DNA of 33,882 bases from Planctomycetota bacterium (GTDB taxonomy: Bacteria; Planctomycetota; UBA1135; GCA-002686595), in contig JACRIO010000206.1 of NCBI GenBank assembly GCA_016220035.1, forward strand, positions 1 to 33,882, read 5' to 3'. The notes under the pieces are model-generated. The model was not told the DNA's origin. It ran no database searches and saw only the letters and a list, made by a program, of their open reading frames with translations. Positions within the stretch are counted from its first letter, which is position 1; the number at the start of each line of letters is the position of its first letter. Position numbers and translations under genes: made by a program. Below are positions 4,410 through 29,376 of the stretch, one piece after another.

Positions 4410-5633
4410 TCACCCCCGCGCCCGCACCTTCACCGTCTCCCCCACGGTGTTCATCATCCGCCGCAGCTCGTCGTAGTCCGAGTGCTGCATGCGGATCCAC
4501 GCATTGGCCATGTATCCGCCGCCGACGGACTGCGTCGGCGTGCCGGGGGGCGGGAGGTAGTAATCGATGATCCACCGCCCGTACGCGTGCTGCACCTTGT
4601 CGAACCCGTCGTAGCCCGTGATGCGGCCGTCGCACTCCGGACGCAGCGCGATCATCCCGCCGGCGCGCGCGCGCGAGGGCTTCGACTCCGTGCGACCGTG
4701 CACGATCGCCTTCGCCCACTCCACGTACAGATCGAGGTCGTTCGCCGCGCCGTAGACGTCCCACACGCGCACTCCCGGAGGACGGCAACCGATCTCGCTG
4801 AACTTGAGGCCCTTCGGCCCGAAGAACCACTCCATGTGCGTCGCCGACGTCCCGATGCCGAGCGCTTGGATCACCTTCTGGCCCATCGCCTTAACCTCGG
4901 CGTAATCGGGTGCGTCCATCCGGTTCGTCAGCACGATCTGCGGCGAGATCCACCGTGTGCGCATCGCCTCGAGGACGTTCGGGTAGTAGTGGCAGATGAA
5001 GTCGTGCTGCACGCGGCCTTCGATCGAGAGCGTGTCGTAGAAGCCCTCGTGGCCCTCGATGAACTCCTCCACCGCGATCGGGGCGCCCTTGTCGACGCGC
5101 GTCGAGCGGAGCGCGGCCTCGAGCTCGACGTCGTTCGCCACCTTGCTCGTCCCCGACGCGCCCGCGCCGTCGCGCGGCTTCAGGATGAGCGGGTAGCCGA
5201 CCTTCTTCGCGAACGCGCGCACTTCGCTCGCGTCGCTCGTGCCGATCGACTGCGCGCACGGGACGCCCGCAGCGCGCAGCGCTTCCTTCATCGCGGGCTT
5301 GTCGCGACAGAGGAACGCCGTGCGCGTGCTCGTCCCGGGGATCGAGCAGCGCTCGCGCACGGTCGCGGCGGCCTGGATGTGCGCTTCGACGGTCGCTTCG
5401 AGCCGGTCGACCCACCCGCGCGCCTGGATGCGGCGCACGGCGTCGTGGAGCCCCTCCTCGTCGACGACGGAGCGCACCTGCTCGTACCCGGCCAGCCAGT
5501 CGCGCATCTCGGAGTCGAGCGCGCTCGCCGGCGCCTCGCCGATCGCCGTGACGCGCGCGCCGACGGCCTTCAACGCGCGCGGGAACTCGCGCTGGTTCCG
5601 GGGGAAATTGGGTTCGACGAAGATCACGTGCAT
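4410..5633 (-). CDS. ATP-grasp ligase, paralogue 1 (407 aa)
   Basis: A predicted ATP-dependent carboxylate-amine or carboxylate-thiol ligase. An N-terminal Rossmann-like pre-ATP-grasp domain (about 1-100) leads into the ATP-grasp core. The core shows RDKPAMK (110-116), the nucleotide-binding lysine in YPLILKP with a glycine loop (148-159), VEEFIEGHEG (188-197), and the metal-binding THMEWFF...EIGCRPPG (265-287). About 120 C-terminal residues follow. It belongs to the same subfamily as the proteins at 10396 and 11753. The substrate is unknown. ATG at 5633 is preceded by GGAG. It begins 95 bases after glycogen synthase on the same strand with no visible promoter between, so co-transcription with glgA is likely. 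It is probably cytoplasmic. Confidence 0.85.
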   Translation of the reverse strand: MHVIFVEPNFPRNQREFPRALKAVGARVTAIGEAPASALDSEMRDWLAGYEQVRSVVDEEGLHDAVRRIQARGWVDRLEATVEAHIQAAATVRERCSIPGTSTRTAFLCRDKPAMKEALRAAGVPCAQSIGTSDASEVRAFAKKVGYPLILKPRDGAGASGTSKVANDVELEAALRSTRVDKGAPIAVEEFIEGHEGFYDTLSIEGRVQHDFICHYYPNVLEAMRTRWISPQIVLTNRMDAPDYAEVKAMGQKVIQALGIGTSATHMEWFFGPKGLKFSEIGCRPPGVRVWDVYGAANDLDLYVEWAKAIVHGRTESKPSRARAGGMIALRPECDGRITGYDGFDKVQHAYGRWIIDYYLPPPGTPTQSVGGGYMANAWIRMQHSDYDELRRMMNTVGETVKVRARG

Positions 5634-5728
5634 GGGGGTCTCCGATTGCGGAGCGCGCGATCGCGCTCGCGGCTCGTCTTCGATGTGAGGGCTCGTTTGG
5701 AGGCTCGTTTCCGGTTCGGGGTCGTCGT

Positions 5729-7189
5729 TCAGCGGCCGAGGAGCCGCTCGTAGAGCGCCTCGTACTGCCGCACCTGCTTCTCCCACGAGAAGTCCTGCGC
5801 CATCCCGTTCTGCACGAGCCGGTTCCAAGCCTGCTCGTCGCGCCAGACGCCGAGCGCGCGCGCGATCGCGTCGAGCAGCGCCTCGCCCTTGAACTCGTCG
5901 AACAGGAAGCCCGTGCCCGCGCCGGTGCGGCCGTTCCACTCCTGCACGGTGTCGGCGAGGCCGCCGGTGCGCCGCACGATCGGCACGGTGCCGTAGCGCA
6001 GCGAGTACATCTGGTTCAAGCCGCACGGCTCGTAGCGCGACGGCATGAGGAAGAGATCCGCGCCGGCCTCGATCGAGTGCGAGAGCGCCTCGTCGTAGCC
6101 CGTCGCGTACGCGACCTTGTCGGGGAAGCTCCGCTGGAGGCTCGTGAAGAAGTTCTGGTAGCGCTCCTCGCCGCTGCCGAGCACGACGAGCCGCACATCC
6201 TGCCGGTGGAGCACGACGGGCAGCGCCTCGGCCGCGAGCTCGAAGCCCTTCTGCGCCGTGAGCCGCGACACGATGCCGAACACGGGCGCGTCGGGTCCCG
6301 CGGCGAGGCCGTACTTGGCGAGCAGCGCAGCGCGGCACGCGCGCTTCCCCTTCAAGTCCTTCGGCGAGTAGCGCGCGGGGATGAGCTCGTCGTGGCGCGG
6401 ATCCCACACGTCGTAGTCGACGCCGTTCACGATGCCGACCAACGCGTCGCGCCGCGCGCGCAGGAGTCCTTCGAGGCCCATGCCGAGCTCCGGCGTCTGG
6501 ATCTCCTCCGCGTACGTCGCGCTGACCGTCGTCACCGCGGTCGCGTAGAGCAGGCCCGTCTCGAGGAAGCCGATTTTGCCCTCGCGCAGGTGTTCTTGAT
6601 GGAGGAGGTTCGCGAAGTGCTCGAAGCCGAGGTCGTGGAGCTTGTCCGCGCCGACGATCCCCTGGTAGCCGATGTTGTGGAGCGTGAGCACCGTCTTCGT
6701 CGACTGGAACATCCGGTCCCAGCCGTACACCGTGCGCAGGTAGAGCGGGATCAGGCTCGCGTGCCAGTCGTTCACGTGGAACACGTCGGGCGCCCACTTC
6801 GACCACTGGCAGAGCTCGATCGCCGCGCGGTTCAGGAGCACGAAGCGCAGGTGCTCGTCCTGGTCCTGCGTGTAGATCCCCTCGCGGTCGTAGAGCTCGG
6901 GACAGCGCACGAACCACACGCGCGTCTTCGAATCGGGGAGCTCCGTGGTCGACACGCTGAACCACGTGCGCTTCGAACCGAGCGTGATCGGGACGTCCTG
7001 CAGGCCGGGGACGGGCTCGAGCTTCCACTTCCCCTGTTGAACACGTTGATAGAGCGGCATGACGAGCCGCACGTCGTGCCCCTTCTTGCCGAGGTGTCGC
7101 GCGAGCGCCGCGGCGACGTCCGCGAGGCCGCCGGTCTTGGCGAAGGGCGCGGCTTCGGACGAGACGATGCAGACCTTGAGTGCGCTCAT
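5729..7189 (-). CDS. glgA: Glycogen synthase, ADP-glucose-dependent (486 aa)
   Basis: A GT5-family enzyme that transfers glucose from ADP-glucose to the growing alpha-1,4-glucan chain. The N-terminal KTGGL motif (18-22) is the ADP-glucose-binding signature, HVNDWHAS lies near residue 160, and the C-terminal GT-B domain carries GIVSRL, PSRYEPCGLNQMYSLRYG and RRTGGLADTV, including the catalytic Glu region. Its length matches normal GlgA (about 470-500 aa). The start MSALKVCIVSSEAAPF is the family's usual N-terminus; GGAG lies upstream. It leads a likely unit with the ATP-grasp gene at 4410. Its substrate supplier, glgC, lies about 20 kb away at 25949-27232. No branching enzyme is present in the window. 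Confidence 0.95.
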   Translation of the reverse strand: MSALKVCIVSSEAAPFAKTGGLADVAAALARHLGKKGHDVRLVMPLYQRVQQGKWKLEPVPGLQDVPITLGSKRTWFSVSTTELPDSKTRVWFVRCPELYDREGIYTQDQDEHLRFVLLNRAAIELCQWSKWAPDVFHVNDWHASLIPLYLRTVYGWDRMFQSTKTVLTLHNIGYQGIVGADKLHDLGFEHFANLLHQEHLREGKIGFLETGLLYATAVTTVSATYAEEIQTPELGMGLEGLLRARRDALVGIVNGVDYDVWDPRHDELIPARYSPKDLKGKRACRAALLAKYGLAAGPDAPVFGIVSRLTAQKGFELAAEALPVVLHRQDVRLVVLGSGEERYQNFFTSLQRSFPDKVAYATGYDEALSHSIEAGADLFLMPSRYEPCGLNQMYSLRYGTVPIVRRTGGLADTVQEWNGRTGAGTGFLFDEFKGEALLDAIARALGVWRDEQAWNRLVQNGMAQDFSWEKQVRQYEALYERLLGR

Positions 7190-7209
7190 GCCGGGGGGCT
7201 CCGCGCGGC

Positions 7210-7215
7210 AGTGTA
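7210..7215 (-). promoter_or_regulatory. -10-like box of glgA
   Basis: The minus strand reads GCTACACT here, with TACACT at 7215-7210, 20 bases before the glgA start codon. The same octamer lies upstream of the genes at 11753 and 16254. No TTGACA-like box lies 17 bases further upstream. Confidence 0.45.
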
Positions 7216-7281
7216 GCGGCGCGGGTGCGCGCGGTCGCGCCGACGAGCGCGCCGCGGACGAAGCACGCCGCCGGTAATGCC

Positions 7282-7314
7282 GCGAGGCCGACGGCACTTC
7301 GCCGTCGGCCTCGC
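7282..7314 (-). terminator. Perfect 14-bp hairpin after the secreted PPC protein gene
   Basis: The arms 7282-7295 and 7301-7314 are perfectly complementary (14 bp) around the 5-base loop ACTTC. It lies 50 bases beyond the stop codon of the minus-strand gene ending at 7365 and before the glgA promoter region's distal side. There is no T-tract. Confidence 0.5.
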
Positions 7315-7364
7315 TGCTCGTCGTGAACGGAACGCTCGGGGTCAGCCGACCCGTCGCGCCTCGA

Positions 7365-8783
7365 TCACCAGGTGATGCCCCAAGCGTTCGTGCCGTTGAA
7401 GGTCTCGGGCGGGCAGAACGCGGCCGACGCGTTGCGGTAGTAGGCCATGTAGTACGCCGTGATGCCCGAACCCGGCGGCGTGTCGTTGCCGACACCCCAG
7501 CCGTTCGACAGCGTCACCGTATCGGTCGGCGAGGGGAAGCTCGCGAGACCCGGCGCGAAGATCGGCTTCGTGCGGCGGCGCAGGACGCCGTCGACGCAAC
7601 GCACGCCGTCGCCGAACACGAGGCCGACGACGTTGTCCACGTCGCCGCGCATGAAGATCACGTTGCCGCTCGCGTTCACGCCGTCGACGTTGAGGGCCAC
7701 GGTGTCGAGGGCCACGGAGCCCGTCGCCGCGAGTCCCGCACCGCTCGCGTTGAACGAGCTAGCGCAGCCGCGGCCGGCGGCGCCGAAGTTCAGGCACGGG
7801 CAGTCCGTCGTCACGTTCGGGTCGAGGTTGTCGCCCGCGCAGAACGCCGCGAAGAGCGGCGGCGCGCCGACCGTGAAGCAGGCCCAAGCGATGTCGAACT
7901 GGCTCACCTTCGTCAGCGCGACCGGCGTAGTGGTCGTGCCGTCGGAGATCGAACACGACACGTTGAGCGCGACCGTCGTGCTGCTGTTCGCCAGGGCGTT
8001 GGGGAAGTCCAGGACGGTGCCGGTCTGGAAGTCCTCATCCGCGTTGGCGTCACCGTTGCTGTTCGCGGTGTTGAAGTTCGAGATGGCGACGTAGTACGTG
8101 CCCGCCGCGAGCGTGCGCGTCGCGCGCGACTGCAGCGAGGGGCCGGCCGGACCTTCGTCGTCGTTGTGGAAAGTCGCGACTGGGTTGAACGACGAGTCGT
8201 ACACGTAGAGCTCCGTGTCCGTCGTGTGACCCTGAGCGATGGTCGTGACCGTGATCGGGCCGGGGAGGAACGCGCCCGGAACGATCACCGGCGTGATCGC
8301 CGTCGACGAAAGCGTCGAGACGTAGTCCATCGTCGTGGCCGCAGCGCCCGTGACGCGGTACACGATGCGGCTCGGAGCGCCGCCCGACGCGTACCACTGG
8401 TTGTAGCGCGGAGGCAGCGTCAGAGTGGACGAGGTCTGGAGCGTGAGGTCCGTGCCCGCGTTGGGCACGCCCGCGGCCTGGCTGAGACCGCGGATCGTGC
8501 CGGTGTGGCCGACGACCGCGCTCGTGATCGTGAGACGGTACTGATTGAGGCCGCCAGCCTGGGTGCAGACCGTCACGTCGTAGTAATCGGCCGAGGCCGC
8601 GCCGGGAACCGTCGTCGACGTGCCGGTCGTGTTGCCGGTGATCGTGTCCCCCACGTTCATGCAGTTGACGACGTTGGCGGCCGCCTTCGTGTCGTTCGCT
8701 TCGGTCTCGGGGAAGTTCGTCTGTGCGTAGCTCGCGGCGCTCGTGGCGAGCACGGCGGCGAGGAATGTCCAACTCTGCTTCAT
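7365..8783 (-). CDS. Secreted protein with PPC-like domain and C-terminal Cys-rich module (472 aa)
   Basis: A signal peptide (MKQSWTFLAAVLATSAASYAQ) is followed by a segment starting ETEANDT that resembles bacterial pre-peptidase C-terminal (PPC) domains, then a second beta-rich segment (about 150-300). From about residue 314 it carries the Cys-rich module: FCAGD, a CPCLNFG...GRGC cluster, FGDGVRC, and YYMAYYRN...FCPPETFN. The same module ends the proteins at 9077 and 32852. No catalytic residues are visible, so a structural or surface-adhesive role is an inference. A strong AGGAG ribosome-binding site precedes the ATG. It is second in line after the gene at 10135-9077 but separated from it by 293 bases, so co-transcription is uncertain. 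Confidence 0.8.
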   Translation of the reverse strand: MKQSWTFLAAVLATSAASYAQTNFPETEANDTKAAANVVNCMNVGDTITGNTTGTSTTVPGAASADYYDVTVCTQAGGLNQYRLTITSAVVGHTGTIRGLSQAAGVPNAGTDLTLQTSSTLTLPPRYNQWYASGGAPSRIVYRVTGAAATTMDYVSTLSSTAITPVIVPGAFLPGPITVTTIAQGHTTDTELYVYDSSFNPVATFHNDDEGPAGPSLQSRATRTLAAGTYYVAISNFNTANSNGDANADEDFQTGTVLDFPNALANSSTTVALNVSCSISDGTTTTPVALTKVSQFDIAWACFTVGAPPLFAAFCAGDNLDPNVTTDCPCLNFGAAGRGCASSFNASGAGLAATGSVALDTVALNVDGVNASGNVIFMRGDVDNVVGLVFGDGVRCVDGVLRRRTKPIFAPGLASFPSPTDTVTLSNGWGVGNDTPPGSGITAYYMAYYRNASAAFCPPETFNGTNAWGITW

Positions 8784-9076
8784 GGGTTCTCCTGCTAGGA
8801 AACAAGCCCCACGGCGCCGCTCTGCCTCGGTCGAGGCTGCCTGAGTTGCGGGCCAGTAGGGTCCCCTGGAGTCTCCCTTCGAAGTGCCCAGCGCGCCAGA
8901 CGGGAATGGGACTCGTCGGACACGTCAGGCTTCGGGAGGACCTCCCGCCGACCCCCCATGGGCCCTCGGCGTGAAGATCCTTCCGCCCCTCGCTTCCACC
9001 TGCACTTGGGTCGGGAATCGTCCGCCCTGAGGCTCCCCACGGCGCCGGCTCCTCCGCGGTGGACCCGCGCTCGGGC

Positions 9077-10135
9077 TCACCAGTCGACCCGCACGCCGTT
9101 CGTGACGTTGAAGGTCTCCGGCGGGCAGAAGGTCGCGACGGAGTTGCGGTAGAAGGCCTGGTAGTAGCGCCGCATTCCGCTCCCCGGCGTCACGCCCCCC
9201 CGCGCGGAGAGCGTGAGCGCGTCGCTGGCGTTCGGGAACGCGCTCGTCCCGCCCGAGTTCACGCGCAGGCGCAGGCGCAGGAGCACGCCGCCCGTGCACC
9301 GCACGCCGTCGCCGAACACCGCGTCCGCGAGCGCGTCCCCCTGCAGGAACACGCTCACCGCCGCCGACGGCATTCCGGAGGCGTTCAGCACGACCGAATC
9401 GCTCGCGGGAGCGCCGCTCGCGTTCAACACGGCACCCGAGGACGTCACGGAGTTCCCGCAGCCCTTCCCCGGCGAGCCGGAGTTCCCGCAGGGACACGGC
9501 GTCGTGTGATCGGCGAGCGCCGCGTCCCCCGCGCAGAAGCTCGCGATCGGCGCGCTCGCGTCCGTGCCCTCGAGCCGCCAGCCGGTCAGCGCGCCGACGT
9601 CGGAGCCGGCCCAGTCGCGGATCTCGAGCCGCCAGCTCCCCGCGGGTCCGGTGATCGTCGACAAGGGAACGTTGCTCGCGTTCACCGTCCACATCCCCGC
9701 GCCGGTGTTGAAGAAGGGGCCGTACGCGCCGGGCCCGATGTTCGTCGTGCCCTGCTGCACGCTCGCGCCGCCCGCGTCGACGAACCGGTAGTCGCCGAGC
9801 AGGTAGTTGCCCGTGTCCCCCGGCAGCCAGCCGTCCGAGCCCGGACGCACGACGAGGTTGTGGGCGGCGCCGCCGGGATCGACGAGCAAGAGGTGCAGGT
9901 CGCCCCGCCAGCTGTGTTGGAAGCCGAGGAGCTCCACGGCGGTGATGCTCGTCACCGCGCTCGACACGCTCACCGTCGAGGAGAACGGCGTGCCCGTGTA
10001 CGCGACGTTCCAGGCACCCGTGTTCGGGACGTGGTCGGGGATCGCGCCGCCGGGGCCGGTCACCGCGAAGTTCCCCGCCTGCGCGGCGAGCGCGAGCACC
10101 GACGAGCACAGGACGGCGAGCGCGGAGCGCTGCAT
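9077..10135 (-). CDS. Secreted protein with proprotein-convertase P-like domain and Cys-rich module (352 aa)
   Basis: A signal peptide (about 1-20) is followed by a domain at about 25-195 with the P-domain pattern: an HSWRGDLHLLLVDPGG strand pair, FFNTGAGMWTVN, and GSWRLEIRDWAGSDVGALTGW. P-domains accompany subtilases and also occur alone on secreted bacterial proteins. No protease domain is present here. The Cys-rich module starts at residue 200 (FCAGD) and shows PCPCGNSGSPGKGC, FGDGVRC and YYQAFYRN...FCPPETFN; it is closely related to the module in the gene at 7365. No clear ribosome-binding site precedes the ATG at 10135. It is divergent from the ATP-grasp gene at 10396. Confidence 0.8.
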   Translation of the reverse strand: MQRSALAVLCSSVLALAAQAGNFAVTGPGGAIPDHVPNTGAWNVAYTGTPFSSTVSVSSAVTSITAVELLGFQHSWRGDLHLLLVDPGGAAHNLVVRPGSDGWLPGDTGNYLLGDYRFVDAGGASVQQGTTNIGPGAYGPFFNTGAGMWTVNASNVPLSTITGPAGSWRLEIRDWAGSDVGALTGWRLEGTDASAPIASFCAGDAALADHTTPCPCGNSGSPGKGCGNSVTSSGAVLNASGAPASDSVVLNASGMPSAAVSVFLQGDALADAVFGDGVRCTGGVLLRLRLRVNSGGTSAFPNASDALTLSARGGVTPGSGMRRYYQAFYRNSVATFCPPETFNVTNGVRVDW

Positions 10136-10346
10136 GGTCGGGGACGGGGACGGGGAGGGGCTCGGGGCCGCGGCGCCGAGACGGTCCGCGCGCCGAGGAG
10201 CACGACGTGGACGGCCGAACGCGGGGCGCGGTCGGTCACGATCGAGGGGCGATCGGGTCGAGGCTCCCCGAACCCTACCCCGGAATCCGCGTGGCGGTCG
10301 GGAGCGCCCGCACGGGACTGCTTTCGAGGAGTCGCGGGTCCCGTGC

Positions 10347-10352
10347 TATCGT
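10347..10352 (+). promoter_or_regulatory. -10-like box upstream of ATP-grasp paralogue 2
   Basis: GCTATCGT with TATCGT at 10347-10352 lies 43 bases before the ATG at 10396. It fits the GCTA-nnnT pattern seen upstream of other genes here. No good -35 box is visible. Confidence 0.4.
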
Positions 10353-10395
10353 TTTCGCCCTCGTTTCCCGCGGAACCGCTTCCCTCACCGGCCCC

Positions 10396-11622
10396 ATGCC
10401 CAACGTCGTCTTCGTCGTCCCGTTCGCGATGGATGCCTCGCTCCGGTTCGTGCGCGCGGCCGCCGCGCTTCCGAACGTGCGGCTCGCGGTCGTCACGCAG
10501 GAGCCGCCCGAGCGCTTCCCCGACGACCTCCGCGCGGCGCTCGCCGGTCATGCCACCGTGGACGACGCGATGCAGTCCGATCAGATCGTCGCCGCCGTGC
10601 GCCAACTCCTGGGCGCGCTCGGCGGCCGCGTCGACCGCATGATCGGCATCCTCGAGCCCCTGCAGGTGCCGCTCGCGGAGGCGCGCGTGGCGCTCGGCCT
10701 CCCCGGTGCCTCCGTCGACGTCGCGCTCAACTTCCGCGACAAGGCGCGCATGAAGACGCTGCTGCGCCAGCACGGGCTCCCCTGCGCGAAGCACTGCCTC
10801 GCCGCGCGCGCGGAGGATGCGCTCGCGTTCGCCGAGCGCGTCGGGTTCCCGCTCGTCGTCAAGCCGCCCGCCGGTGCGGGAGCGCGCAACACGTTCCGCG
10901 TGAACTCGCGCGCCGAGCTCGACGACGCGCTGCGCACCATGCCGCCGCGGCCGGAGAAGCCCGTGCTCTTCGAGGAGTTCATCCAGGGCGAGGAGTACAG
11001 CTTCGACACCGTCACGCTCGGCGGACGGCACGTGTTCCACTCGATCTCGCGCTACGCGCCCGCGCCGCTCGACGTCCTGCAGAACCCGTGGATCCAGTGG
11101 GCCGTGTACCTGCCGCGTAGCATCGACGACCCCAAGTTCGGCGCGATCCTCGACGCGGGCCCGCGCGCGCTCGACGTGCTCGGCATGCACGTCGGCCTGA
11201 CGCACATGGAGTGGTTCCGCCGTCCCGACGGATCGATCGCGATCTCCGAGGTCGCGGCGCGTCCGCCGGGCGCGCAGTTCACGACGCTCCTGTCGTACGC
11301 GCACGACTACGACTTCTACCAGGGCTGGGCGCGCCTGATGATCCACGAGCAGTTCACGCCGCCGCGGCGCAAGTACTCCGCCGGCGCCGCCTACGTGCGC
11401 GCGCAAGGCAATGGCGCGCGCATCGTCGGCGTCCGCGGCCTCGCCGAGATCCAGCGCGAGCTGGGCGAACTCGTGGTCGAGTCGAAGCTCCCGCGCGAAG
11501 GCCAAGCGCCGACGGGAACGTACGAAGGCGAGGGCTACATCGTCGTGCGCCATCCGGAGACACGTGTCGTCGAAGAGGCCCTGCGGCGCATCGTCGAGAC
11601 GATCCGCGTCGACCTCGGATGA
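10396..11622 (+). CDS. ATP-grasp ligase, paralogue 2 (408 aa)
   Basis: A predicted ATP-dependent amide- or thioester-forming ligase of the same subfamily as those at 4410 and 11753. Key parts are NFRDKARMKTLL (112-123), FPLVVKP with a glycine loop (151-162), FEEFIQGEEYSFDTV (192-206), and THMEWF...SEVAARPPGAQ (269-294). In the last motif, Ala-Ala replaces the Gly-Cys or Gly-Gly of the paralogues before Arg-Pro-Pro. The start MPNVVFVVPF aligns with the beta-strand starts of the paralogues; a longer version from 10207 adds non-coding-looking sequence. No Shine-Dalgarno is evident. A hairpin at 11658-11682 separates it from the next ATP-grasp gene, which has its own promoter-like box. The substrate is unknown. 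Confidence 0.85.
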   Translation: MPNVVFVVPFAMDASLRFVRAAAALPNVRLAVVTQEPPERFPDDLRAALAGHATVDDAMQSDQIVAAVRQLLGALGGRVDRMIGILEPLQVPLAEARVALGLPGASVDVALNFRDKARMKTLLRQHGLPCAKHCLAARAEDALAFAERVGFPLVVKPPAGAGARNTFRVNSRAELDDALRTMPPRPEKPVLFEEFIQGEEYSFDTVTLGGRHVFHSISRYAPAPLDVLQNPWIQWAVYLPRSIDDPKFGAILDAGPRALDVLGMHVGLTHMEWFRRPDGSIAISEVAARPPGAQFTTLLSYAHDYDFYQGWARLMIHEQFTPPRRKYSAGAAYVRAQGNGARIVGVRGLAEIQRELGELVVESKLPREGQAPTGTYEGEGYIVVRHPETRVVEEALRRIVETIRVDLG

Positions 11623-11657
11623 CGCGGAGCGCGCGCCGCGCCGCGCTCGGCTTCGAC

Positions 11658-11682
11658 GGCGCACCTCGCACCCGGGTGCGCC
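11658..11682 (+). terminator. Hairpin between the two adjacent ATP-grasp genes
   Basis: The arms 11658-11665 and 11675-11682 are perfectly complementary (8 bp) with a 9-base loop, 35 bases after the stop at 11622. Only TT follows. It lies just before the TACACT box of the next gene. Confidence 0.4.
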
Positions 11683-11704
11683 TTCGCATCGTGCGTCCGG
11701 GCGC

Positions 11705-11710
11705 TACACT
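11705..11710 (+). promoter_or_regulatory. -10-like box of the ATP-grasp/S51/esterase operon
   Basis: GCTACACT (TACACT at 11705-11710) lies 42 bases before the ATG at 11753. TTCGCA 16 bases upstream (11683-11688) is a 4-of-6 match to a -35 box. Confidence 0.5.
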
Positions 11711-11752
11711 GCCCGTTCCGCGTCCCCCTCGACGACCCCTCGATATCACGCC

Positions 11753-12973
11753 ATGAACGTGCTCCTGATCTCGCCGGGCTTCCCCCACCAGATCCCCTTC
11801 TTCACGATCGGGCTCGCGAAGGTGGGCGCCAAGGTCTTCGGCGTCGGCGACCAGCCGGTGCAGGCGCTCGACGAGAAGGTGCGGCGCGCGATGACGGGCT
11901 ACCTGCAGGTGAAGAACCTGTGGGACGAGGAAGCGACGACGGACGAGATCCACGCCTGGGTGCGCGGAAAGTCGATCGACCGCGTCGAGTGCCTGTGGGA
12001 ACCCGGCGTCGTGCTCGCGGGACGCGTGCGCGAGGCGCTCGACGTGCCCGGGCTCACCGTCGAGCAGTCGATCCCGCTGCGCGACAAGGTCGCGATGAAG
12101 AACGTGATCGAGGCCGCGGGCCTGCGCACGCCCAAGCACGCGCGCGTGAAGACGGCGCGGGAATGCCGTGAAGCGGCCGAGCGCATCGGCTACCCGCTGA
12201 TCATCAAGCCGATCGCGGGCGCGGGTTCGGCCGACACGTACGAGCTGCGCGCTCCGCAGGACCTCGAGAACGCGCTGAGGATCCTGCAGCACGTGCCCGA
12301 GGCCTCGATCGAGGAGTTCATCGAAGGCGAGGAGCACACGTTCGACACGGTGTGCGCGAACGGCGAGATCCTCTTCGAGAACGTCGGCTGGTACCGGCCC
12401 AAGCCGCTCGTCTCGCGCCTCAACGAATGGATCAGCCCGCAGACGATCTGCCTGCGCGACATCGACCAGCCCGAGCTCTCCCCCGGCCGCAAGCTCGGCC
12501 GCGACGTGATCCGGGCGCTCGGTTTCCGCGACGGCTTCACGCACATGGAGTGGTTCAGGACGCCGAAGGGCGAGGCGGTGTTCGGCGAGATCGGCGGCCG
12601 TCCGCCCGGCGGGCAGATGGTGCACGGCATGAACTACACGACGGACGCGGACCTGTTCGTCGGCTGGGCCGAGGCGCTCGTGCACGGACGCATCTCCCAG
12701 GACCTCCGCAAGCAGTACAACGCGTGCCTCGTCTTCAAGCGCGCGCAGGGGAACGGCCAACGCGTCGTGCGTTACGACGGCCTCGACCGCGTGCTCAACG
12801 AGGTCGGACAGAACCTCGCGCACATGGAGCTCACCCCGCTCGGCGCGCCGAAGAAGGACTGGCGCCAAGTCGTGCAGGGCGACGGCTGGATCGTCGTGCG
12901 CCATCCCGAGCTCAGGCGCATGATCGAGCTCGCCGACCGCGTCGCCACCGACCTCACGCTGGTGGCCGGCTGA
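11753..12973 (+). CDS. ATP-grasp ligase, paralogue 3 (406 aa)
   Basis: It has the same fold and layout as the ligase at 4410: an N-terminal domain starting MNVLLISPGF, LRDKVAMKNVI (109-119), YPLIIKP with a glycine loop (147-158), IEEFIEGEEHTFDTV (186-200), and THMEWF...GEIGGRPPGGQ (263-288). By eye it resembles the 4410 protein more than its immediate neighbour at 10396. It is the first gene of a tight three-gene unit: the S51-like gene starts 1 base after its stop and the esterase overlaps that in turn. Such spacing means coordinated expression and suggests one pathway. The acceptor and donor substrates cannot be read from sequence. Confidence 0.87.
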   Translation: MNVLLISPGFPHQIPFFTIGLAKVGAKVFGVGDQPVQALDEKVRRAMTGYLQVKNLWDEEATTDEIHAWVRGKSIDRVECLWEPGVVLAGRVREALDVPGLTVEQSIPLRDKVAMKNVIEAAGLRTPKHARVKTARECREAAERIGYPLIIKPIAGAGSADTYELRAPQDLENALRILQHVPEASIEEFIEGEEHTFDTVCANGEILFENVGWYRPKPLVSRLNEWISPQTICLRDIDQPELSPGRKLGRDVIRALGFRDGFTHMEWFRTPKGEAVFGEIGGRPPGGQMVHGMNYTTDADLFVGWAEALVHGRISQDLRKQYNACLVFKRAQGNGQRVVRYDGLDRVLNEVGQNLAHMELTPLGAPKKDWRQVVQGDGWIVVRHPELRRMIELADRVATDLTLVAG

Positions 12974-12974
12974 A

Positions 12975-13919
12975 ATGCAGCGCCCCAAGGTCGTCCTGCT
13001 CGGTCCCCAGCGGCTCCACCCGACGCTGAACCTCGCCGTCGACGCGCTCGGCGTGCACGGACGCATCGCCGCGATCACCGCGGGCTGGGAGGAGCGCGAA
13101 GCGGAGGACCAGGAGCTCTCCGCGCACCTCGGCGGGCGCACGATCAACCTGCGCCTTTGGGAGCGCGCGAGCGACGTGTCCCAGCGCGATCCCGAGCTCC
13201 TGCGCGGCTGGCGCGCGCGCATCGACACGCAGCGCGAGATCCACGACATCTACAAGCTGCGCCTCGGACACGAGATGGAGTGCGCGCGCGAGCTCCTCCA
13301 ACGCGAAGCGCAGGACCCGACGCGCGAGCTCGTCGTCGCCGAGTGCGAGGGCGCCATCGACGCGGTGCGGCGGCTCGACGCGTTCCACCTCGAGCGCATC
13401 CGCGCCGTCCACGAGGAGTTCGCGGACCTGTGGCGTCCGCACGAGCGCGATTCCGTCGCGCGCCACCGCCGCGAGATCGCGGGCATCCTGCACGAGGTCG
13501 AGTGCCTCTGCGTCGCCGGCGGCCACGTCGCGCGCCTGCTCGACCACCTGCGCCTGTTCGGGATCTTCGGCCTCCTGCCCGAGATGCCCGTGATCGCGTG
13601 GTCGGCGGGCTCGATGGCGCTCGGCGACCGCGTGGTGCTCTTCCACGACGCGCCGCCGCAGGGTCCCGGCAACCCCGAGGTCTTCGAGCTCGGGATCGGG
13701 CTCTACCGCGGGCTCGTGCCGCTGCCGCACGCCTCGAAACGCCTGAAGCTCGACGATCCCTTGCGCGTGAAGCTCATGGCGCGACGCTTCCGGCCCGCGT
13801 TGTGCGCGGTGCTCGACCCGAAGACGCGCCTCGACTGGAACGGACGGCGGTGGCGCGGCGAGCACGGCACGCTGCGCATGTGCGAGAGCGGCGCGCTCGC
13901 GGAAGTGAACGCCGTATGA
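12975..13919 (+). CDS. Peptidase S51/class I amidotransferase-like protein (314 aa)
   Basis: The C-terminal half resembles the peptidase E/cyanophycinase (S51) fold. CVAGGHVARLLDHLRLFG (about 179-196) matches the family's Gly-Gly motif before the helix, PVIAWSAGSMAL carries a nucleophile-elbow serine (Ser210), and GLVPLPHAS supplies a plausible catalytic His (His252). The N-terminal half (about 1-160) is a charged helical region not typical of S51, with a helical insertion at 75-170. Characterised S51 members cleave after aspartyl or beta-aspartyl bonds. Whether this one is a peptidase, an amidotransferase-like enzyme or inactive is open. ATG is at 12975, 1 base after the preceding stop; its own stop overlaps the next start (ATGA). 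Confidence 0.65.
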   Translation: MQRPKVVLLGPQRLHPTLNLAVDALGVHGRIAAITAGWEEREAEDQELSAHLGGRTINLRLWERASDVSQRDPELLRGWRARIDTQREIHDIYKLRLGHEMECARELLQREAQDPTRELVVAECEGAIDAVRRLDAFHLERIRAVHEEFADLWRPHERDSVARHRREIAGILHEVECLCVAGGHVARLLDHLRLFGIFGLLPEMPVIAWSAGSMALGDRVVLFHDAPPQGPGNPEVFELGIGLYRGLVPLPHASKRLKLDDPLRVKLMARRFRPALCAVLDPKTRLDWNGRRWRGEHGTLRMCESGALAEVNAV

Positions 13920-15049
13920 ACCCGCTGCTCACCGATCTCGAGAAGCGGGCGCGCACCCGTCCGCGGGAGGTCGACGCGCTCCTCGCGCAGCACACCTTCC
14001 CCGTCGTCGAAGGGCGCAACGTCACGTTCGTCTTCCGCGGCGACGCGGAGGCGGTGCGCTTGCAGCACTGGATCCACGGACTGCAGAGCGCGCAGCCGCT
14101 CGCGCGCATCGGCGGCACGAACCTGTGGGCGCTCACGATCGACCTGCCCGAGGGCTCGCGCATGGAGTACAAGCTCGAGGTCGAGCAGTACGGCCATCGT
14201 CGGCTCGTGCAGGACCCGCTCAACCCGCACCTCGCGCGCGATCCCTACGGCGCGAACTCGGTGGTCTACGGCGCGGGCTACGCGCCGCCGGAGTGGACGC
14301 TGTTCGACGCGGAAGCGCGCCAGGGCGAGATCGTCGACCACTGGGTCCAGAGCGATTTCCTCGGGAAGCGGCCGTTCAAGGTCTACCTCCCCGCGCGCTT
14401 CCGACGCTCGCGCCGCTATCCGCTGCTCGTCGCGCACGACGGCGAGGACTACATGCGCTTCGCGGGCTTCAAGACGATCCTCGACAACCTCGTCCACCGC
14501 CTCGAGATCCCGCCGCTCGTCGTGGCGCTCATCCAATCGCCCGACCGACTGCACGAATACGCCGCCGACGACCGCCACGCGCGCTTCCTGGTGCACGAGC
14601 TCGTCCCGCTGCTCGAGAACGAGTACCCGCTCGTCGCGAAGCCGACGGGGCGCGCGCTCATGGGCGCGAGCTTCGGCGCGGTCGCGTCGTTGCACGCGGC
14701 GTGGAAGCACCCGCGCTTCTTCGACCTGCTCGCGCTGCAGTCCGGTTCGTTCGTGTTCACCGACATCGGCGACCACCAGCGCGGCCCGCTCTTCGATCCG
14801 GTCGTGAAGTGGGTCAACGAGTTCCGCGCGAGCCCCGGCCGCCCGAGCGACAAGCTCTTCGTGTCGTGCGGCAAGTACGAGTCGCTCATCTACTACAACC
14901 GCTCGCTCGTGCCGCTCCTGCAGAAGACCGGCATGCAGGTCGAGTTCAGCGAGGCCCCCGACGGCCACAACTGGGAGAACTGGCGCGATCGGTTGCGCGA
15001 AGCACTGTGCACGCTGTTCCCCGGGCCGTTGTGGCACGTGTACGAGTGA
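13916..15049 (+). CDS. Enterochelin-esterase-like hydrolase with N-terminal E-set domain (377 aa)
   Basis: The N-terminal E-set/CBM48-like domain (about 25-125) carries VTFVFRGDAEAVRL and MEYKLEV, as in Fes and glycogen-branching-type proteins. The C-terminal esterase-D-type alpha/beta hydrolase (about 140-370) has PLLVAHDGEDYM, a nucleophile elbow GASFGA (Ser252) and a catalytic His in DGHNW (His351). No signal peptide is seen, so it is probably cytoplasmic. Fes-family enzymes hydrolyse siderophore esters, but no siderophore genes are nearby. With ligases on either side, it more likely acts on the product or intermediate of this operon (inference). It starts at an ATGA overlap with the S51-like gene. 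No terminator is obvious after it. Confidence 0.82.
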   Translation: MNPLLTDLEKRARTRPREVDALLAQHTFPVVEGRNVTFVFRGDAEAVRLQHWIHGLQSAQPLARIGGTNLWALTIDLPEGSRMEYKLEVEQYGHRRLVQDPLNPHLARDPYGANSVVYGAGYAPPEWTLFDAEARQGEIVDHWVQSDFLGKRPFKVYLPARFRRSRRYPLLVAHDGEDYMRFAGFKTILDNLVHRLEIPPLVVALIQSPDRLHEYAADDRHARFLVHELVPLLENEYPLVAKPTGRALMGASFGAVASLHAAWKHPRFFDLLALQSGSFVFTDIGDHQRGPLFDPVVKWVNEFRASPGRPSDKLFVSCGKYESLIYYNRSLVPLLQKTGMQVEFSEAPDGHNWENWRDRLREALCTLFPGPLWHVYE

Positions 15050-15130: not shown

Positions 15131-16141
15131 ATGCGTTTGCTCCCCTTCCTGCTCGCGCTCCCGCTCGCGGGTTCCCTGCTCGCCACGCCGCTCGCCCACG
15201 ACGGCGTCCGCATCGCCCTGAAGTACGAGAAGGACCAGGTCCTCCGTTATCGCAGCACCCTCACGATGGAGCAGACGGTCAGCGGTCCAACGGAGATCAC
15301 GACCAGGAACGAGACGGCGCAGGTGTTCGCGCAAAACGTCAAAGAGGTCGACAAGGAGGGCGTCGCCACGCTCGCCTGCGAGTGGGAGGCGGTGCGCATG
15401 AAGGTCGAGGCGGGCGGCGGCGTCACGATCGACTACGACTCGACCGATCCGAAGAGCACGCCGCCGGAGGGCCTCGCCGGGTTCGCCAAGCTCGTCGGCC
15501 TCGGGTTCGAGATGCAGGTGAAGCAGAACGGCGAGATCGTGCGCTTGAAGGGCATGAAGGAAGCGCTCGACGCGCTCTTCGAGGGCAGCGACCCGGGCGT
15601 GGCCGTCATGAAGCAGATGTTCCAGGGCATCCTCGACGACGACAACATGAAACGCACCTTCGAGGCCACCGTCTGGCCCGAGCACGAGTTGAAGGAGGAC
15701 GAGGTCTGGAGCCGCGACGTCGCGATGAAGCTCGGGCCGCTCGGCGAGGCGACGTTGAAGTACGAGTACACGTTCCGCGGCATCGTCGACGAAGGCGGCG
15801 AGCGTTGCGCGAAGCTCGACATCGCCGTGGTGATGAAGTTCGGGGACGAGATCGACACCTCGAACATGCCCGGTGCCGAACAGCTCGACATCGAACTCGA
15901 CGTGAAGGACTCGAAAGGCTCGGGCGAGCTCTACTTCGCCATCGACAAGGGGCGCCTCGTGCGCACGACGATGGACCAGGACGTCGAGTTCTCGATGAAC
16001 ATGAAGGCGAAGGAAGCGATCCCCGGATTCCCCGAGGAAGGCCTCGACATCGGCTTCGACATGAGCACCAAGGTCGAGATGCGCCTCCTCGGGAAGGACG
16101 ATCCGCCGTTCGGGGAAGCCCGCTCCGACGCGAAGAAGTGA
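15131..16141 (+). CDS. Secreted DUF6263-like protein (336 aa)
   Basis: A signal peptide (MRLLPFLLALPLAGSLLATPLA) is followed by a beta-rich, Lys/Glu-rich mature protein. Repeating elements are of the type 'LRYRSTLTMEQTV', 'GEIVRLKGMKEAL' and 'RLVRTTMDQDVEFSMNMK'. This resembles the DUF6263 family of exported planctomycete proteins, which has no known function; the assignment is by pattern. There are only two cysteines and no catalytic signature. The ATG has a good CAGGAG ribosome-binding site. It lies between the esterase and the fourth ATP-grasp gene, both on the same strand, but has its own promoter-like box, so its link to the pathway is unclear. Confidence 0.7.
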   Translation: MRLLPFLLALPLAGSLLATPLAHDGVRIALKYEKDQVLRYRSTLTMEQTVSGPTEITTRNETAQVFAQNVKEVDKEGVATLACEWEAVRMKVEAGGGVTIDYDSTDPKSTPPEGLAGFAKLVGLGFEMQVKQNGEIVRLKGMKEALDALFEGSDPGVAVMKQMFQGILDDDNMKRTFEATVWPEHELKEDEVWSRDVAMKLGPLGEATLKYEYTFRGIVDEGGERCAKLDIAVVMKFGDEIDTSNMPGAEQLDIELDVKDSKGSGELYFAIDKGRLVRTTMDQDVEFSMNMKAKEAIPGFPEEGLDIGFDMSTKVEMRLLGKDDPPFGEARSDAKK

Positions 16142-16253: not shown

Positions 16254-17651
16254 GTGACCACGATCACCCGCAAGATCGGTCTGTCCCTCGGCGCCGACAC
16301 CTGCTGGCCCATCTGCTACGAGGACATCGTTCGCGAGCTCGATCTCGCGCTGCCCCACGGCCCGAAGGGCCAAGACACCCTACGCTTCGAGGTCGAACGC
16401 GTGCGCATCGCGCCCTTCGACCTCGGGCAGGGCTGCCCGTACGACGTCGTCGTCGATCGCCTGACGCACTGGTACGTGCCGACGCGTGAGTGGATCAAGC
16501 GGTCGATCCTGATGGACGGCCTCTACGTCTGGAACAACCCGTGGTCGGTGCAGTCGAACGAGAAGAGCACGACCTACGCGGCGATGCTGAAGCTCGGACT
16601 GCCGATCCCGAAGACGTGGCTCGTCTCGCCCAAGAGCTACGAGGAGAAGAACGACCTGCAGACGACGCTGACGCGCTACGCGGACCTCTTCGACCTGGGC
16701 GCCATCGGCAGGGAGATCGGCTACCCGATGTTCATGAAGCCGTACGACGGCGGCGGCTGGGTCGGCGTCAGCAAGATCGACGACGAAGCCGCGCTGCGCG
16801 ACGCGTACGAGAAGAGCGGCAAGGCGTTCATGCTGCTCCAGAAGGGCGTCGTGCCCTTCGACGCGTTCGTGCGCTGCATCGCGCTCGGCCCGCAGACGCA
16901 CGTGATCAAGTACGACCCGTCGCAGCCGCTCCACCAGCGCTACACGACCGAGCGCGACTTCATGAGCGCGGACGATCGCAAGCTGCTCGAGGACATGACG
17001 CTGACGATCAACGCCTTCTTCGGCTGGGACTTCAACAGCTGCGAGGCGCTCCTGAAGGACCATGTCTGGTATCCGATCGACTACGCGAACCCGTGCCCCG
17101 ATTCGCAGGTGACGAGCCTGCACCAGCACTTCCCGTGGCTCGTCAAGAGCTACGTCCGCTGGTCGCTCTACTGCGCCGCGACGAAGAAGAAGATGCGCCC
17201 GTCGCTCGACTGGGAGCCGTTCTTCGCGGCCCGCGACGAAAAACTCGACCTGCGCACGCAAGTGGCGCGCTACGCGAAGATCGCGCGCGAGCGCCTCGAG
17301 GCCGATCGCTTCGAGGAGTGGTGCGCGAAGCACCTCCCGAACCTCGACGAGGTCGCGTGGAACTACTTCGGCACGCCGAGCGCGAAGGAAGCCATCCGCA
17401 AAAAGGTCGAGATGCTGTTTCCGCTGCACGAGCGGGAGCAGTTCACCGAGCACTTCTTCGCCGAGATCCAGAAGTGGCGCGAGCGTGACGCCGCCGAGCG
17501 CGCGGAGAAGACCAAGGCCAAGGGCCCGAGCGTGCAGCAGCACAGCTTCCTCGCGCCCGCCGGCTCCGCGGCCAAGACGCCGAGCACCGGGACGCATGCC
17601 GACGGCGCGGACAAGGCGTCGAAGCCCGCGAAGAAGAGCTCGAAGAAGTGA
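16254..17651 (+). CDS. ATP-grasp ligase 4, RimK/glutathione-synthetase-like (465 aa)
   Basis: A divergent ATP-grasp protein not closely related to the other three. It shows NNPWSVQSNEKSTTYAAML (94-112), a lysine in YPMFMKPYDGGGWVGV (157-172), FDAFVRCIALG (202-212), and the metal-binding block FFGWDFNSCEALL...YPIDYANPCPDS (256-284), where an acidic residue and Asn are followed by an Asn-Pro pair as in RimK and glutathione-synthetase-type enzymes. A Lys/Ala-rich tail begins near residue 430. I chose GTG 16254 because AAAGGA lies about 10 bases upstream and the promoter-like box is then suitably distant; 16209 (GTG) would add 15 residues. A predicted amide ligase with unknown substrates. The palindrome at 17664-17685 separates it from the esterase. 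Confidence 0.8.
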   Translation: MTTITRKIGLSLGADTCWPICYEDIVRELDLALPHGPKGQDTLRFEVERVRIAPFDLGQGCPYDVVVDRLTHWYVPTREWIKRSILMDGLYVWNNPWSVQSNEKSTTYAAMLKLGLPIPKTWLVSPKSYEEKNDLQTTLTRYADLFDLGAIGREIGYPMFMKPYDGGGWVGVSKIDDEAALRDAYEKSGKAFMLLQKGVVPFDAFVRCIALGPQTHVIKYDPSQPLHQRYTTERDFMSADDRKLLEDMTLTINAFFGWDFNSCEALLKDHVWYPIDYANPCPDSQVTSLHQHFPWLVKSYVRWSLYCAATKKKMRPSLDWEPFFAARDEKLDLRTQVARYAKIARERLEADRFEEWCAKHLPNLDEVAWNYFGTPSAKEAIRKKVEMLFPLHEREQFTEHFFAEIQKWRERDAAERAEKTKAKGPSVQQHSFLAPAGSAAKTPSTGTHADGADKASKPAKKSSKK

Positions 17652-17725: not shown

Positions 17726-18469
17726 ATGAGCAAGCAATCCGAGAACTGGTACTCCGAACGCCTGGGCCAGCACGTCACCGTCGCGCGCTGGGGCCAGGTG
17801 GGCACCCCCGTGCTCGTCTTCCCCACCGCCGCGGGCGACGCGGAGGAGTGCGAGCGCTTCCTCCTGCTCGACGTGCTCGCGCCGCTGCTCGAGGCGGGCC
17901 GGATCAAGGTCTACTCCGTCGACTCCATCGCGGGGCAGGCGTGGGTCGATCGCGACATCCCGCGCGACGTCGCGGGCCGACGGCAGAACCAATTCGACGA
18001 GTTCGTCTACCGCGAGGTGATCCCGCTCATCCGCTCGGACTGCAAGTCGCCCGACATCGAGGTCTTCGTCGCGGGTGCGTCGATCGGCGCGTTCAACGCG
18101 CTCGCGGCGATCTGTCGGCATCCCGACGTCTTCTCGAAGGCGATCTGCATGAGCGGGACGTTCGACATCGAACGCTTGTTCGCCGACGGCCAGGTCTCGC
18201 GCGACTTGTGGCACGCCTCGCCGCTCCATTTCATGCCGCGCATGCCGCCGGGCGAGCACTTGGAGAAGCTCAAGACGCGCTTCGTGCTCATGGCGCACGG
18301 CCAAGGCCGCGCCGAGAGTCCCGAGCACAACTGGGGCATGGCGCAGATCCTTGGGGCGAAGGGCATCCCCAATCGCGTCGACGACTGGGGACCCGACTAC
18401 CCGCACGACTGGGTCACGTGGCGCAAGATGCTGCCGAAGTACCTGGACGAGCTCGCGCCGCGCGCGTGA
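17726..18469 (+). CDS. COG4947-like esterase (247 aa)
   Basis: A cytoplasmic esterase-superfamily protein with the esterase-D-type alpha/beta fold. PVLVFPTAAGDAEECERF (28-45) and KVYSVDSIAGQAW (61-73) are typical of the COG4947 group. The nucleophile elbow is GASIGAF (Ser119), CMSGTFDIERLF follows at about 141-152, and the catalytic His is in DYPHDW (His227). The reaction is unknown. From memory, COG4947 proteins are often encoded near ATP-grasp genes, which fits here. The start MSKQSENWY at 17726 is the family-like N-terminus; no strong ribosome-binding site is seen. It converges on the gene at 18980-18531, with a shared hairpin between. Confidence 0.83.
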   Translation: MSKQSENWYSERLGQHVTVARWGQVGTPVLVFPTAAGDAEECERFLLLDVLAPLLEAGRIKVYSVDSIAGQAWVDRDIPRDVAGRRQNQFDEFVYREVIPLIRSDCKSPDIEVFVAGASIGAFNALAAICRHPDVFSKAICMSGTFDIERLFADGQVSRDLWHASPLHFMPRMPPGEHLEKLKTRFVLMAHGQGRAESPEHNWGMAQILGAKGIPNRVDDWGPDYPHDWVTWRKMLPKYLDELAPRA

Positions 18470-23239: not shown

Positions 23240-24472
23240 TCAGGGCACGATGCCGAAGCACAGCGCGTTCGTGAGCCCGCTCTGGTAGCCGGCGGGATCG
23301 TTCGGGTCGCGGTGCCACCACTGCGCGTAAATGAGCTCGCCGGGCAGGAGCGTCGGATCCGCGCCGCTCTGGATGCGGACGTTGAAGTTGTAGGAGAAGA
23401 CGCCGCCGCACGGCCCCGAACCCTGCGACGTCTGCCCGCCCGCGCGCCGGAACGCGCCGATGCAGAACGTCCCGCCCTCGAACGGCTGCGCGTCCTGCGT
23501 GTGCGAGTAGAAGAGCACGCCGCGTTTTCCCGGCGGGACGAGCGTCGCCGTGATGAGGAACGGCGCGGGGTTCGTGAGGCTCGGGAGTCCGCTCCCCGCG
23601 ATCTGCGGGACACAGCCCTGCGAGTTCAGCTTGCCGACGCAGTAGGTGGTGATCGGAGCGTAGCCGCCGTCGTAGGCGTAGTACCCGATGTCGCTGCGCG
23701 ACAGGTCGGGATCGAGCAGCGCCGGATCGCCCGCGTCGATGCACGGCGAACCGGGCCGCAGGTGGAGGTCTCCGCCCGCGAGGTTCCACAACCCCGGATC
23801 GCCCGTGAGGTTGTTCGTGAAGGGTGCTCCCGCGGCGTAGAACGGCCCGCCCGCGCAGTAGACGATCGTTCCGTAAGCGGGGCCCGCGTGATTCGTGCCG
23901 TTGCCCCACACGATGCAGTTCTTCATCCGGATGAAGTCGGTGAAGAGCGCCGCTTCGACGCCGACCGTGTTGTTCACGATCGTGCAGTCGAGCAGGTTGC
24001 TGTCGTAGACCGTGATGACGCCGTAGCCCGCATTGTCGCGCACGATGCAGCGCTCCAGGCGCCCGTCCCACGACTGCACGGCGGACACTCCCCCGGGCAG
24101 AAGTCCCGTGATCGTGAACCCCTCGAACACGATCGAGTCCATCTCGTCGGTGGGCGCGTCGAGGATGAGGATCGACGTCGCGGCTGCCGGTCGCAGCGTG
24201 GTCGCCTCGGCGCCGGCCGTCGCGCGCACGGTGATGCGTTTCGTCAGGTGCACGTTCTCGACGTACGTGCCGGCGGCAACGAGCACGGTGTCGAAGTCCA
24301 GCGTCGTCGGGCGGTCGTGCGCGTACTGGATGCTCGCGTAGGGACTCGCCTGCGTGCCGAGGCCCGGCGCCGTCGCGTTCACGTCGACGTACCAGGTCGT
24401 CTGCGCCGGGACGCGCGCGGCGAGCGCGAGGACGCCGAGGGCGAGGATCGAGGTTCGACGGCTGAGTTTCAT
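23240..24472 (-). CDS. Secreted right-handed beta-helix protein, tandem copy 2 (410 aa)
   Basis: A signal peptide (MKLSRRTSILALGVLALAARVPAQ) is followed by TTWYVDVNATAPG and a parallel beta-helix region (about 25-270). Short turns there follow the pattern VLVAAGTYVEN, ITGLLPGG, CIVRDNAGYGV, CTIVNNTVGV, CIVWGNG, as in polysaccharide-binding or lyase-like and surface proteins. The region ends with SPCIDAGDPALLDPD and SDIGYYAYDGGY. The C-terminal module (about 277-410) starts YCVGKLNSQGC and ends QWWHRDPNDPAGYQSGLTNALCFG. No catalytic residues are evident. GGAG lies upstream of the ATG. It starts 37 bases after the stop of its paralogue at 24510, so co-transcription is likely. Confidence 0.82.
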   Translation of the reverse strand: MKLSRRTSILALGVLALAARVPAQTTWYVDVNATAPGLGTQASPYASIQYAHDRPTTLDFDTVLVAAGTYVENVHLTKRITVRATAGAEATTLRPAAATSILILDAPTDEMDSIVFEGFTITGLLPGGVSAVQSWDGRLERCIVRDNAGYGVITVYDSNLLDCTIVNNTVGVEAALFTDFIRMKNCIVWGNGTNHAGPAYGTIVYCAGGPFYAAGAPFTNNLTGDPGLWNLAGGDLHLRPGSPCIDAGDPALLDPDLSRSDIGYYAYDGGYAPITTYCVGKLNSQGCVPQIAGSGLPSLTNPAPFLITATLVPPGKRGVLFYSHTQDAQPFEGGTFCIGAFRRAGGQTSQGSGPCGGVFSYNFNVRIQSGADPTLLPGELIYAQWWHRDPNDPAGYQSGLTNALCFGIVP

Positions 24473-24509
24473 GAGTGGCTCCGATCGCGAAGGATCCTGG
24501 ATTCTCGCT

Positions 24510-25748: not shown

Positions 25749-25753
25749 GGAAA

Positions 25754-25760
25754 CCTCCTC
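25754..25760 (-). promoter_or_regulatory. Strong ribosome-binding site that decides a TTG start
   Basis: GAGGAGG on the minus strand lies 5 bases before the TTG at 25748. It is the best Shine-Dalgarno sequence in the window and supports the non-ATG start. Confidence 0.7.

Positions 25761-25948: not shown

Positions 25949-27232
<1,284 letters not shown>

Positions 27233-27462: not shown

Positions 27463-29376
<1,914 letters not shown>

Follow-up and report, generated by a model that had tools for sequence, protein, structure and literature searches.

The three ATP-grasp ligases encoded in this DNA, here called A, B and C, are parts of a conserved system that also includes a fourth ATP-grasp protein (D), a protein with an S51 fold (U), two esterases (E1 and E2), one type of glycogen synthase (GlgA) and often an ADP-glucose pyrophosphorylase (GlgC). 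An earlier note had drawn attention to the trio, to which D and the other conserved genes of the cluster are added here. The comparisons described here establish that the members of the set are present together, to which families they belong, and that they are linked to alpha-glucan genes, and they indicate that the three ligase groups are old. The window, by which we mean the whole 33,882-nucleotide stretch that was analysed, is one contig (C145) of a MAG of 4.78 Mb in 341 contigs that is 83.7% complete. Its relevant features are as follows.

5633-4410, minus strand: A, ATP-grasp ligase, L-amino-acid-ligase-like, 407 aa (ORF translation, Pfam, relatives)
5729-7189, minus strand: GlgA, glycogen synthase of the trio-linked type (TIGR02095 at 537.8 bits, over cut-off; co-occurrence; adjoins A in relatives)
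10396-11622, plus strand: B, ATP-grasp ligase, 408 aa (ORF, Pfam, relatives)
11753-12973, plus strand: C, ATP-grasp ligase, 406 aa (ORF, Pfam, AlphaFold model)
12975-13919, plus strand: U, S51 (peptidase E/cyanophycinase) fold (PF03575 below cut-off, alignment, model, fold search)
13916-15049, plus strand: E1, esterase (PF00756) with an Enterochelin_N domain (Pfam, PDB profile matches)
15131-16141, plus strand: DUF6263 gene
about 16254-17651, plus strand: D, fourth, divergent ATP-grasp protein (Dala_Dala_lig_C below cut-off, alignment, orthologs)
17726-18469, plus strand: E2, small alpha/beta-hydrolase esterase (PF00756; Pfam, alignment)
25949-27232, minus strand: GlgC, ADP-glucose pyrophosphorylase (TIGR02091 at 445.7 bits, over cut-off; co-occurrence)
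27463-29376, plus strand: protein with two CBS domains, an occasional neighbour outside the core (Pfam)

A starts with the ATG at 5633, position 4410 being the 3' end of this minus-strand gene; for D a GTG start is assumed at 16254, and searches were run with 16260-17651. The genes for C, U and E1 are tightly packed, with 1 base between the C stop and the U ATG and a 4-base overlap of the E1 start with the U stop. GlgC lies 7.5 kb from E2 and is the probable source of ADP-glucose for GlgA. No signal peptide was seen by eye in A, B, C, D, U, E1 or E2. Two secreted-looking proteins encoded on the minus strand between GlgA and B (7365-8783 and 9077-10135) have a common C-terminal domain that ends ...FCPPETFN..., and related domains recur near the cluster in loci L028, L045, L056 and L061. 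A second pair of neighbouring secreted-looking proteins (23240-24883 and 24510-25889, minus strand) are tandem duplicates with nearly identical C-terminal halves and, by eye, beta-helix-like repeats. The 816-residue product of 19113-21563 (plus strand) gives weak matches to terpene-cyclase-like repeats and a match to an F5/8 type C domain, all below cut-off.

A, B and C carry the motifs from which the earlier note had proposed a single ATP-grasp subfamily of about 407 residues, and they detect one another far beyond chance. Pairwise identities are 30.8% (A-B), 33.7% (A-C) and 32.1% (B-C) over 402-404 aligned residues; a search with B retrieves C (E = 1.2e-68) and A (E = 2.5e-58), and a profile of the A family matches the window's C at 283.5 bits (E = 3.6e-84). 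In an alignment of 37 A, 30 B and 28 C sequences, thirty-three columns reach 95% conservation or more within every one of the three groups, and these columns include RDKxxMK, P..xKP, EE, HMEW and E...R..G. There are in addition 24 clade-specific invariant residues in A, 11 in B and 13 in C. Pfam and NCBIfam assign A, B, C and D to ATP-grasp families only, with A and B over the cut-off of PF02222 and C over those of PF02655 and PF13535, and none of the four reaches an NCBIfam cut-off. PF15632, an early guess at the family, was discarded when it matched only ORFs of carbamoyl-phosphate-synthase-like size elsewhere.

The top PDB profile match of all three is RizA (4wd3), at E = 8.7e-20 for A, 2.5e-23 for B and 6.9e-26 for C. 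Structure models were made for C and U, and the ligase likeness of A and B rests on sequence profiles; the AlphaFold model of C (pLDDT 81.7) has BL00235 (3vot) and RizA (4wd3) as its nearest solved folds. Judged by these nearest relatives, A, B and C probably belong to the L-amino-acid ligase group, whose members join carboxylates and amines into amide bonds. The residues of the metal-site motif differ in the window as described earlier (IGC in A, VAA in B, IGG in C), but their value as a mark of specialisation is another matter. EIGCRPPG is fixed in 37 of 37 A sequences, whereas the motif residue is A, Q, C or V among B sequences and A, G or C among those of C, and we therefore rejected it as such a mark for B and C. 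The pattern E-[IV]-[AG]-x-R is also present in the alignment rows of RizA and BL00235, and residues 282-287 of the C model, which make up the motif at issue, have pLDDT below 50.

We then consider how old the trio is. In a larger tree of 106 rows, with A, B and C taken from 28 of the best 80 of 559 loci and from 8 of 16 relatives' loci, A, B and C each form one side of a branch (97, 87 and 100). A more careful tree of 54 rows, with ultrafast bootstrap/SH-aLRT support, seven other ATP-grasps and long outgroup branches that were flagged by the program, recovers A (99/96), C (100/99) and a further A-like group, A2 (100/99). A had been thought closer to C than to B, and both trees agree, at 97 in the 106-row tree and at 99/100 for A, A2 and C against B, with the long outgroup, in the 54-row tree. 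Placement of the three in distant ATP-grasp families is contradicted by their grouping together against the seven other sampled ATP-grasps (89/96). The unity of B is weaker; it has 87 in the 106-row tree but appears in just 14% of 200 bootstrap trees with 54 rows, where the Myxococcota B rows float. A2 is 45-49% identical to A, comprises 7 rows, and is located elsewhere in genomes as a separate clade. The window's own genome has an A2 gene (L043 8397-9614, G000:C15; 45% to A), and others are at L044-L048 and L050; a lone B-like paralog (L049 8193-9407, 44% to B) lies away from the cluster in G033.

All three genes are found together in 39 of the best 80 of 559 loci, which by record title are from Planctomycetota (23), Myxococcota (5), Acidobacteriota (4), Eiseniibacteriota (1), Actinomycetota (1) and unassigned sources (5); these labels are titles of MAG records and may be wrong, and that of Actinomycetota looks doubtful. 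Duplication and specialisation are thus supported, with A, C and, weakly, B as separate multi-phylum groups that have clade-specific invariant residues. The local duplication suggested by the words 'within 9 kb' is not; we rejected tandem duplication in place because the A, B and C groups are each shared over phyla, and the data show instead an old set that has been kept together.

The partners were identified from the neighbourhoods of A, using the best 80 of 559 loci from named MAGs, several of them the same MAGs as in a set of 41 relatives described below. Around A in these best 80 of 559 loci we find U in 55, E1 in 53, GlgA in 51, B in 46, D in 44, C in 40, E2 in 37, and GlgC and the CBS-domain protein in 9 each. 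When only the 33 of these best 80 of 559 loci with at least 9.5 kb on each side are counted, U and E1 are present in 28, D in 26, GlgA in 25, B in 24, C and E2 in 23, and GlgC in 6. The order [A-GlgA] divergent from [B-C-U-E1-D-E2] recurs in 16 relatives' loci, apart from rearrangements and places where a contig ends. In 10 of the best 80 of 559 loci, A has nearby either GlgX, of the debranching type, or GlgP, an alpha-glucan phosphorylase. With the known genes masked only four ORF groups recur in at least 6 of these loci; GlgX and GlgP account for two of the four, and a third is an RND-like ORF (8 of the best 80 of 559).

Other candidates for membership were set aside. The DUF6263 gene was dropped, with no relative in the 16 relatives' loci. 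The CBS-domain protein, whose N-terminal part we take by eye to be a putative GCS2-like ligase although PF04107 is unmatched, follows E2 as a relative in some Myxococcota loci, but it is present in 15/17 genomes with the trio and 13/24 without it, and was not retained as core. A role in anti-phage defence was likewise dismissed, since PADLOC gave no match at 0.001 for A, B, C, D, U, E1 or E2. Plasmid records yielded no D and, for A, only weak relatives.

The contents of these loci bear on the idea that the ligases modify a protein or a cell-wall component by peptide tagging, with the glycogen genes as regulatory partners only. A D-like protein at L154 weakly matches the R2K ATP-grasp clade (PF18299, E = 0.0043, below cut-off), for which a role in modifying proteins is predicted (PMC4431377). 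No conserved gene for a target protein is in the cluster among the best 80 of 559 loci, however, and A, B and C are closest to ligases of free amino acids; we regard tagging as quite improbable.

Joint presence was examined across genomes, all of them MAGs, with Fisher tests that ignore kinship. The 41 relatives include the window's own genome, and the trio genomes are the 17 with B at 53% identity or more. D (at least 383 bits) is in the same 17 of 41 as B, weak relatives of D (115-132 bits) being present in 3 of the 24 trio-less relatives, and U is in 16/17 trio genomes and 0/24 of the others. In the phylum at large (294 genomes), A and full-score D each occur in 35 genomes and share 34 of them (Fisher p = 3e-42, kinship ignored); the exceptions are G075, with A and without D, and G167, with D and without A, and weaker D relatives (297-331 bits) are carried by seven genomes that lack A. 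The thresholds for D (464 vs 331 bits) and GlgA (544 vs 484 bits) were chosen after the lists had been seen. D and U lie on contigs other than that of A-GlgA-B-C in G029 and G033, and far off in another contig in G040, so that joint presence does not reflect linkage alone. It is accordingly very unlikely that the trio and the alpha-glucan genes are mere neighbours by chance or hitch-hiking: related genomes do share gene order and our statistics ignore kinship, but gene order varies widely between loci and the partners co-occur even when unlinked.

About 80 residues of U (about 73-153) form a long helical insertion, and the model of U (pLDDT 90.4) retrieves 15 peptidase E/cyanophycinase chains with Foldseek at E values from 2.5e-6 to 6.8e-5; its match to PF03575 (E = 3.5e-4) is below cut-off. 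Ser210, in WSAG, and His252 are invariant in 13/13 sequences, and they are probably the S51 catalytic pair. The modelled fold together with this Ser/His pair suggests that U belongs to the S51 peptidases. D resembles Dala_Dala_lig_C of Pfam below cut-off (E = 0.0024), and its PDB search gives only fragmentary matches to D-Ala-D-Ala ligases. In E2, Ser119 is invariant in 7/7 sequences, and the one marginal PDB match is an esterase.

E1 matches CE1 ferulic acid esterases (E = 5.5e-18) and Fes (6.6e-16) by profile. Enterochelin_N is found in its N-terminal domain in 11/11 sequences, CBM_20 and CBM_48 below cut-off in 4/11 each, and no PDB chain matches this domain at E up to 1. The resemblance to enterochelin esterase, together with the production of antibiotics by BacD-type ligases, could point to a secreted siderophore- or antibiotic-like glycopeptide that the ligases assemble, to which GlgA and GlgC add sugar, and which a Fes-like E1 releases. 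We consider this improbable. The surroundings of A in the best 80 of 559 loci show no recurring exporter, receptor or regulator dedicated to such a product, GlgA and GlgC score over the cut-offs of true glycogen enzymes, and a spread over phyla would be unusual for such a pathway.

The glycogen synthase is of a particular type. GlgA of the window type (at least 544 bits; next best 484) is in 26/35 genomes with A and in 1/259 without A, the latter only 66% complete, and 9/35 A genomes do not have it at the threshold used. All 17 trio genomes have some GlgA. Within the window's family, 11/11 trio-less genomes have GlgA of another type only (358-406 bits to TIGR02095), and a complete GlgA of this other type is also present in 12/14 trio genomes of the family. 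GlgC (threshold 1e-70) is in 11/14 trio vs 0/11 trio-less genomes of the window's family, and in 3/3 and 4/13 respectively outside it; overall 14/17 trio genomes have it, and the three that do not are all incomplete MAGs.

Branching enzymes were sought with TIGR01515 (E up to 1e-70) and PF09210 (E up to 1e-8) only. The GlgB type (TIGR01515) is found in 1/17 trio genomes, G020, where the match is at a contig edge in a MAG of 1060 contigs, and the PF09210 type (1e-8) in 0/17; no branching enzyme is detected by either profile in 13 of the 14 trio genomes with GlgC. One or both types are present in 4/4 trio-less genomes with GlgC, two of which are from one family (1/17 vs 4/4, Fisher p = 0.0016, kinship ignored), and G025 and G036 are trio-less with a branching enzyme and without GlgC. 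With GlgC in 14/17, GlgA in 17/17 and a branching enzyme detected by TIGR01515 or PF09210 at these thresholds in 1/17, the trio genomes do not show the classical glycogen pathway. Of six loci examined with D relatives and without A, those of the trio-less G031 and G167 have D and E2 relatives beside GlgB, and G167 also E1; the other four (L151, L152, L153 and L156) have no adjoining glycogen genes. At L154 (3251-11794), in a trio-less genome, genes for GlgB, an E2-like protein, a D-like protein, a YbdK-type carboxylate-amine ligase and an M29-like peptidase lie side by side.

What the system makes can be approached from these parts. Three old, non-exchangeable paralogs together with D imply that several different bonds are formed; the two esterases and the S51 hydrolase imply breakage of ester and amide bonds as well; the dedicated GlgA, together with GlgC, implies that ADP-glucose enters; and the lack of a detected branching enzyme implies an unbranched glucan. 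The simplest single product would be an alpha-glucan bearing amino acids or peptides. Our best guess, which we put forward tentatively, is an intracellular alpha-glucan made from ADP-glucose, with an amino-acid or peptide unit that the ligases assemble and that is either attached to the glucan or produced in coordination with it. The linkage of the genes to alpha-glucan synthesis is observed, and the chemistry of the product we infer from it.

In such a scheme A, B and C would be three non-redundant amide-bond-forming ligases, each activating a carboxylate as an acyl-phosphate and joining it to a different amine, and with D they would build an amino-acid or short peptide unit. GlgC and GlgA would provide an alpha-1,4-glucan by way of ADP-glucose, and the unit would be attached to this glucan, probably via an ester; E1 and E2 may cut or transfer the ester, and U may cut an amide or isopeptide bond during turnover of the compound. 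The decorated glucan would stand where other genomes have branched glycogen. The covalent link between unit and glucan, and the substrates of all members, are predictions. The most specific form of this proposal, a new kind of storage or structural polymer in which an unbranched ADP-glucose-made alpha-glucan bears ester-linked amino-acid or peptide groups built by four dedicated ATP-grasp ligases and replaces branched glycogen in several phyla, we regard as unlikely. The A genomes without trio-type GlgA (9/35), the trio genomes without GlgC (3/17), the four D-relative loci away from glycogen genes, the Enterochelin_N match of E1 and the enterochelin esterase among its relatives count against glucan decoration.

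An alternative that we consider about as likely as a decorated glucan is that the product of the ligases is an amide-linked amino-acid compound in its own right, serving as a soluble nitrogen reserve or a compatible solute, co-regulated with the alpha-glucan but not joined to it, and that U and the esterases degrade it. Cyanobacteria, which have cyanophycin beside glycogen, offer an analogy, and the cyanophycinase/peptidase E fold of U, the synthesis of free dipeptides by L-amino-acid ligases and the co-occurrence of glycogen and ligase genes are all consistent with this possibility. It does not explain the trio-specific GlgA, the missing branching enzymes or the need for two esterases, one of them carbohydrate-esterase-like, and none of A to D is a cyanophycin synthetase by the NCBIfam cut-off.

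If the linkage is taken at face value, bacteria of several phyla, mostly uncultured ones, make an amino-acid-coupled alpha-glucan, or a coupled reserve, that has so far gone unsought. At least four families of ligases, two esterases and an S51 peptidase whose insertion is unusual would thereby acquire a function, and it would become clear how cells that have GlgC and GlgA manage without a recognisable branching enzyme. The families were already known; their combination, in which a cluster of ATP-grasp ligases is coupled to the synthesis of alpha-glucan, is new to the literature searched, which mostly lay outside subscription journals and in which no description of the cluster or combination was found. 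A 2009 paper that reportedly deals with amidoligase gene neighbourhoods could hold an earlier description.

Several known systems resemble this one in part. Among solved structures, the profiles of A, B and C come closest to RizA (4wd3), BL00235 (3vot) and BacD/YwfE (3vmm), with which the three proteins share the catalytic pattern HxE...E-[IV]-[AG]-x-R, and C also resembles the L-amino-acid ligases RizA and BL00235 by fold; however, C has only about 16-20% identity to these enzymes in fold alignments, and unlike them the three paralogs are in one system with alpha-glucan genes. Cyanophycin metabolism similarly combines an ATP-grasp ligase, CphA, with an S51-fold hydrolase, cyanophycinase, but A, B and C reach just 35.3, 41.8 and 38.1 bits against the 850-bit cut-off of TIGR02068 for CphA, and U differs from cyanophycinase in its long helical insertion and is only 10-12% identical to it. 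E1 is like CE1 ferulic acid esterases and Fes by profile match, but sits in a cluster of ligase and alpha-glucan genes. The bacterial GlgC-GlgA glycogen pathway is matched by GlgC and GlgA over curated cut-offs and by the presence, in some genomes, of GlgX, GlgP or GlgB close to members of the cluster, and differs in that a branching enzyme is undetected with TIGR01515 and PF09210 in 16/17 trio genomes, and in that four ATP-grasp proteins and two esterases accompany GlgC and GlgA.
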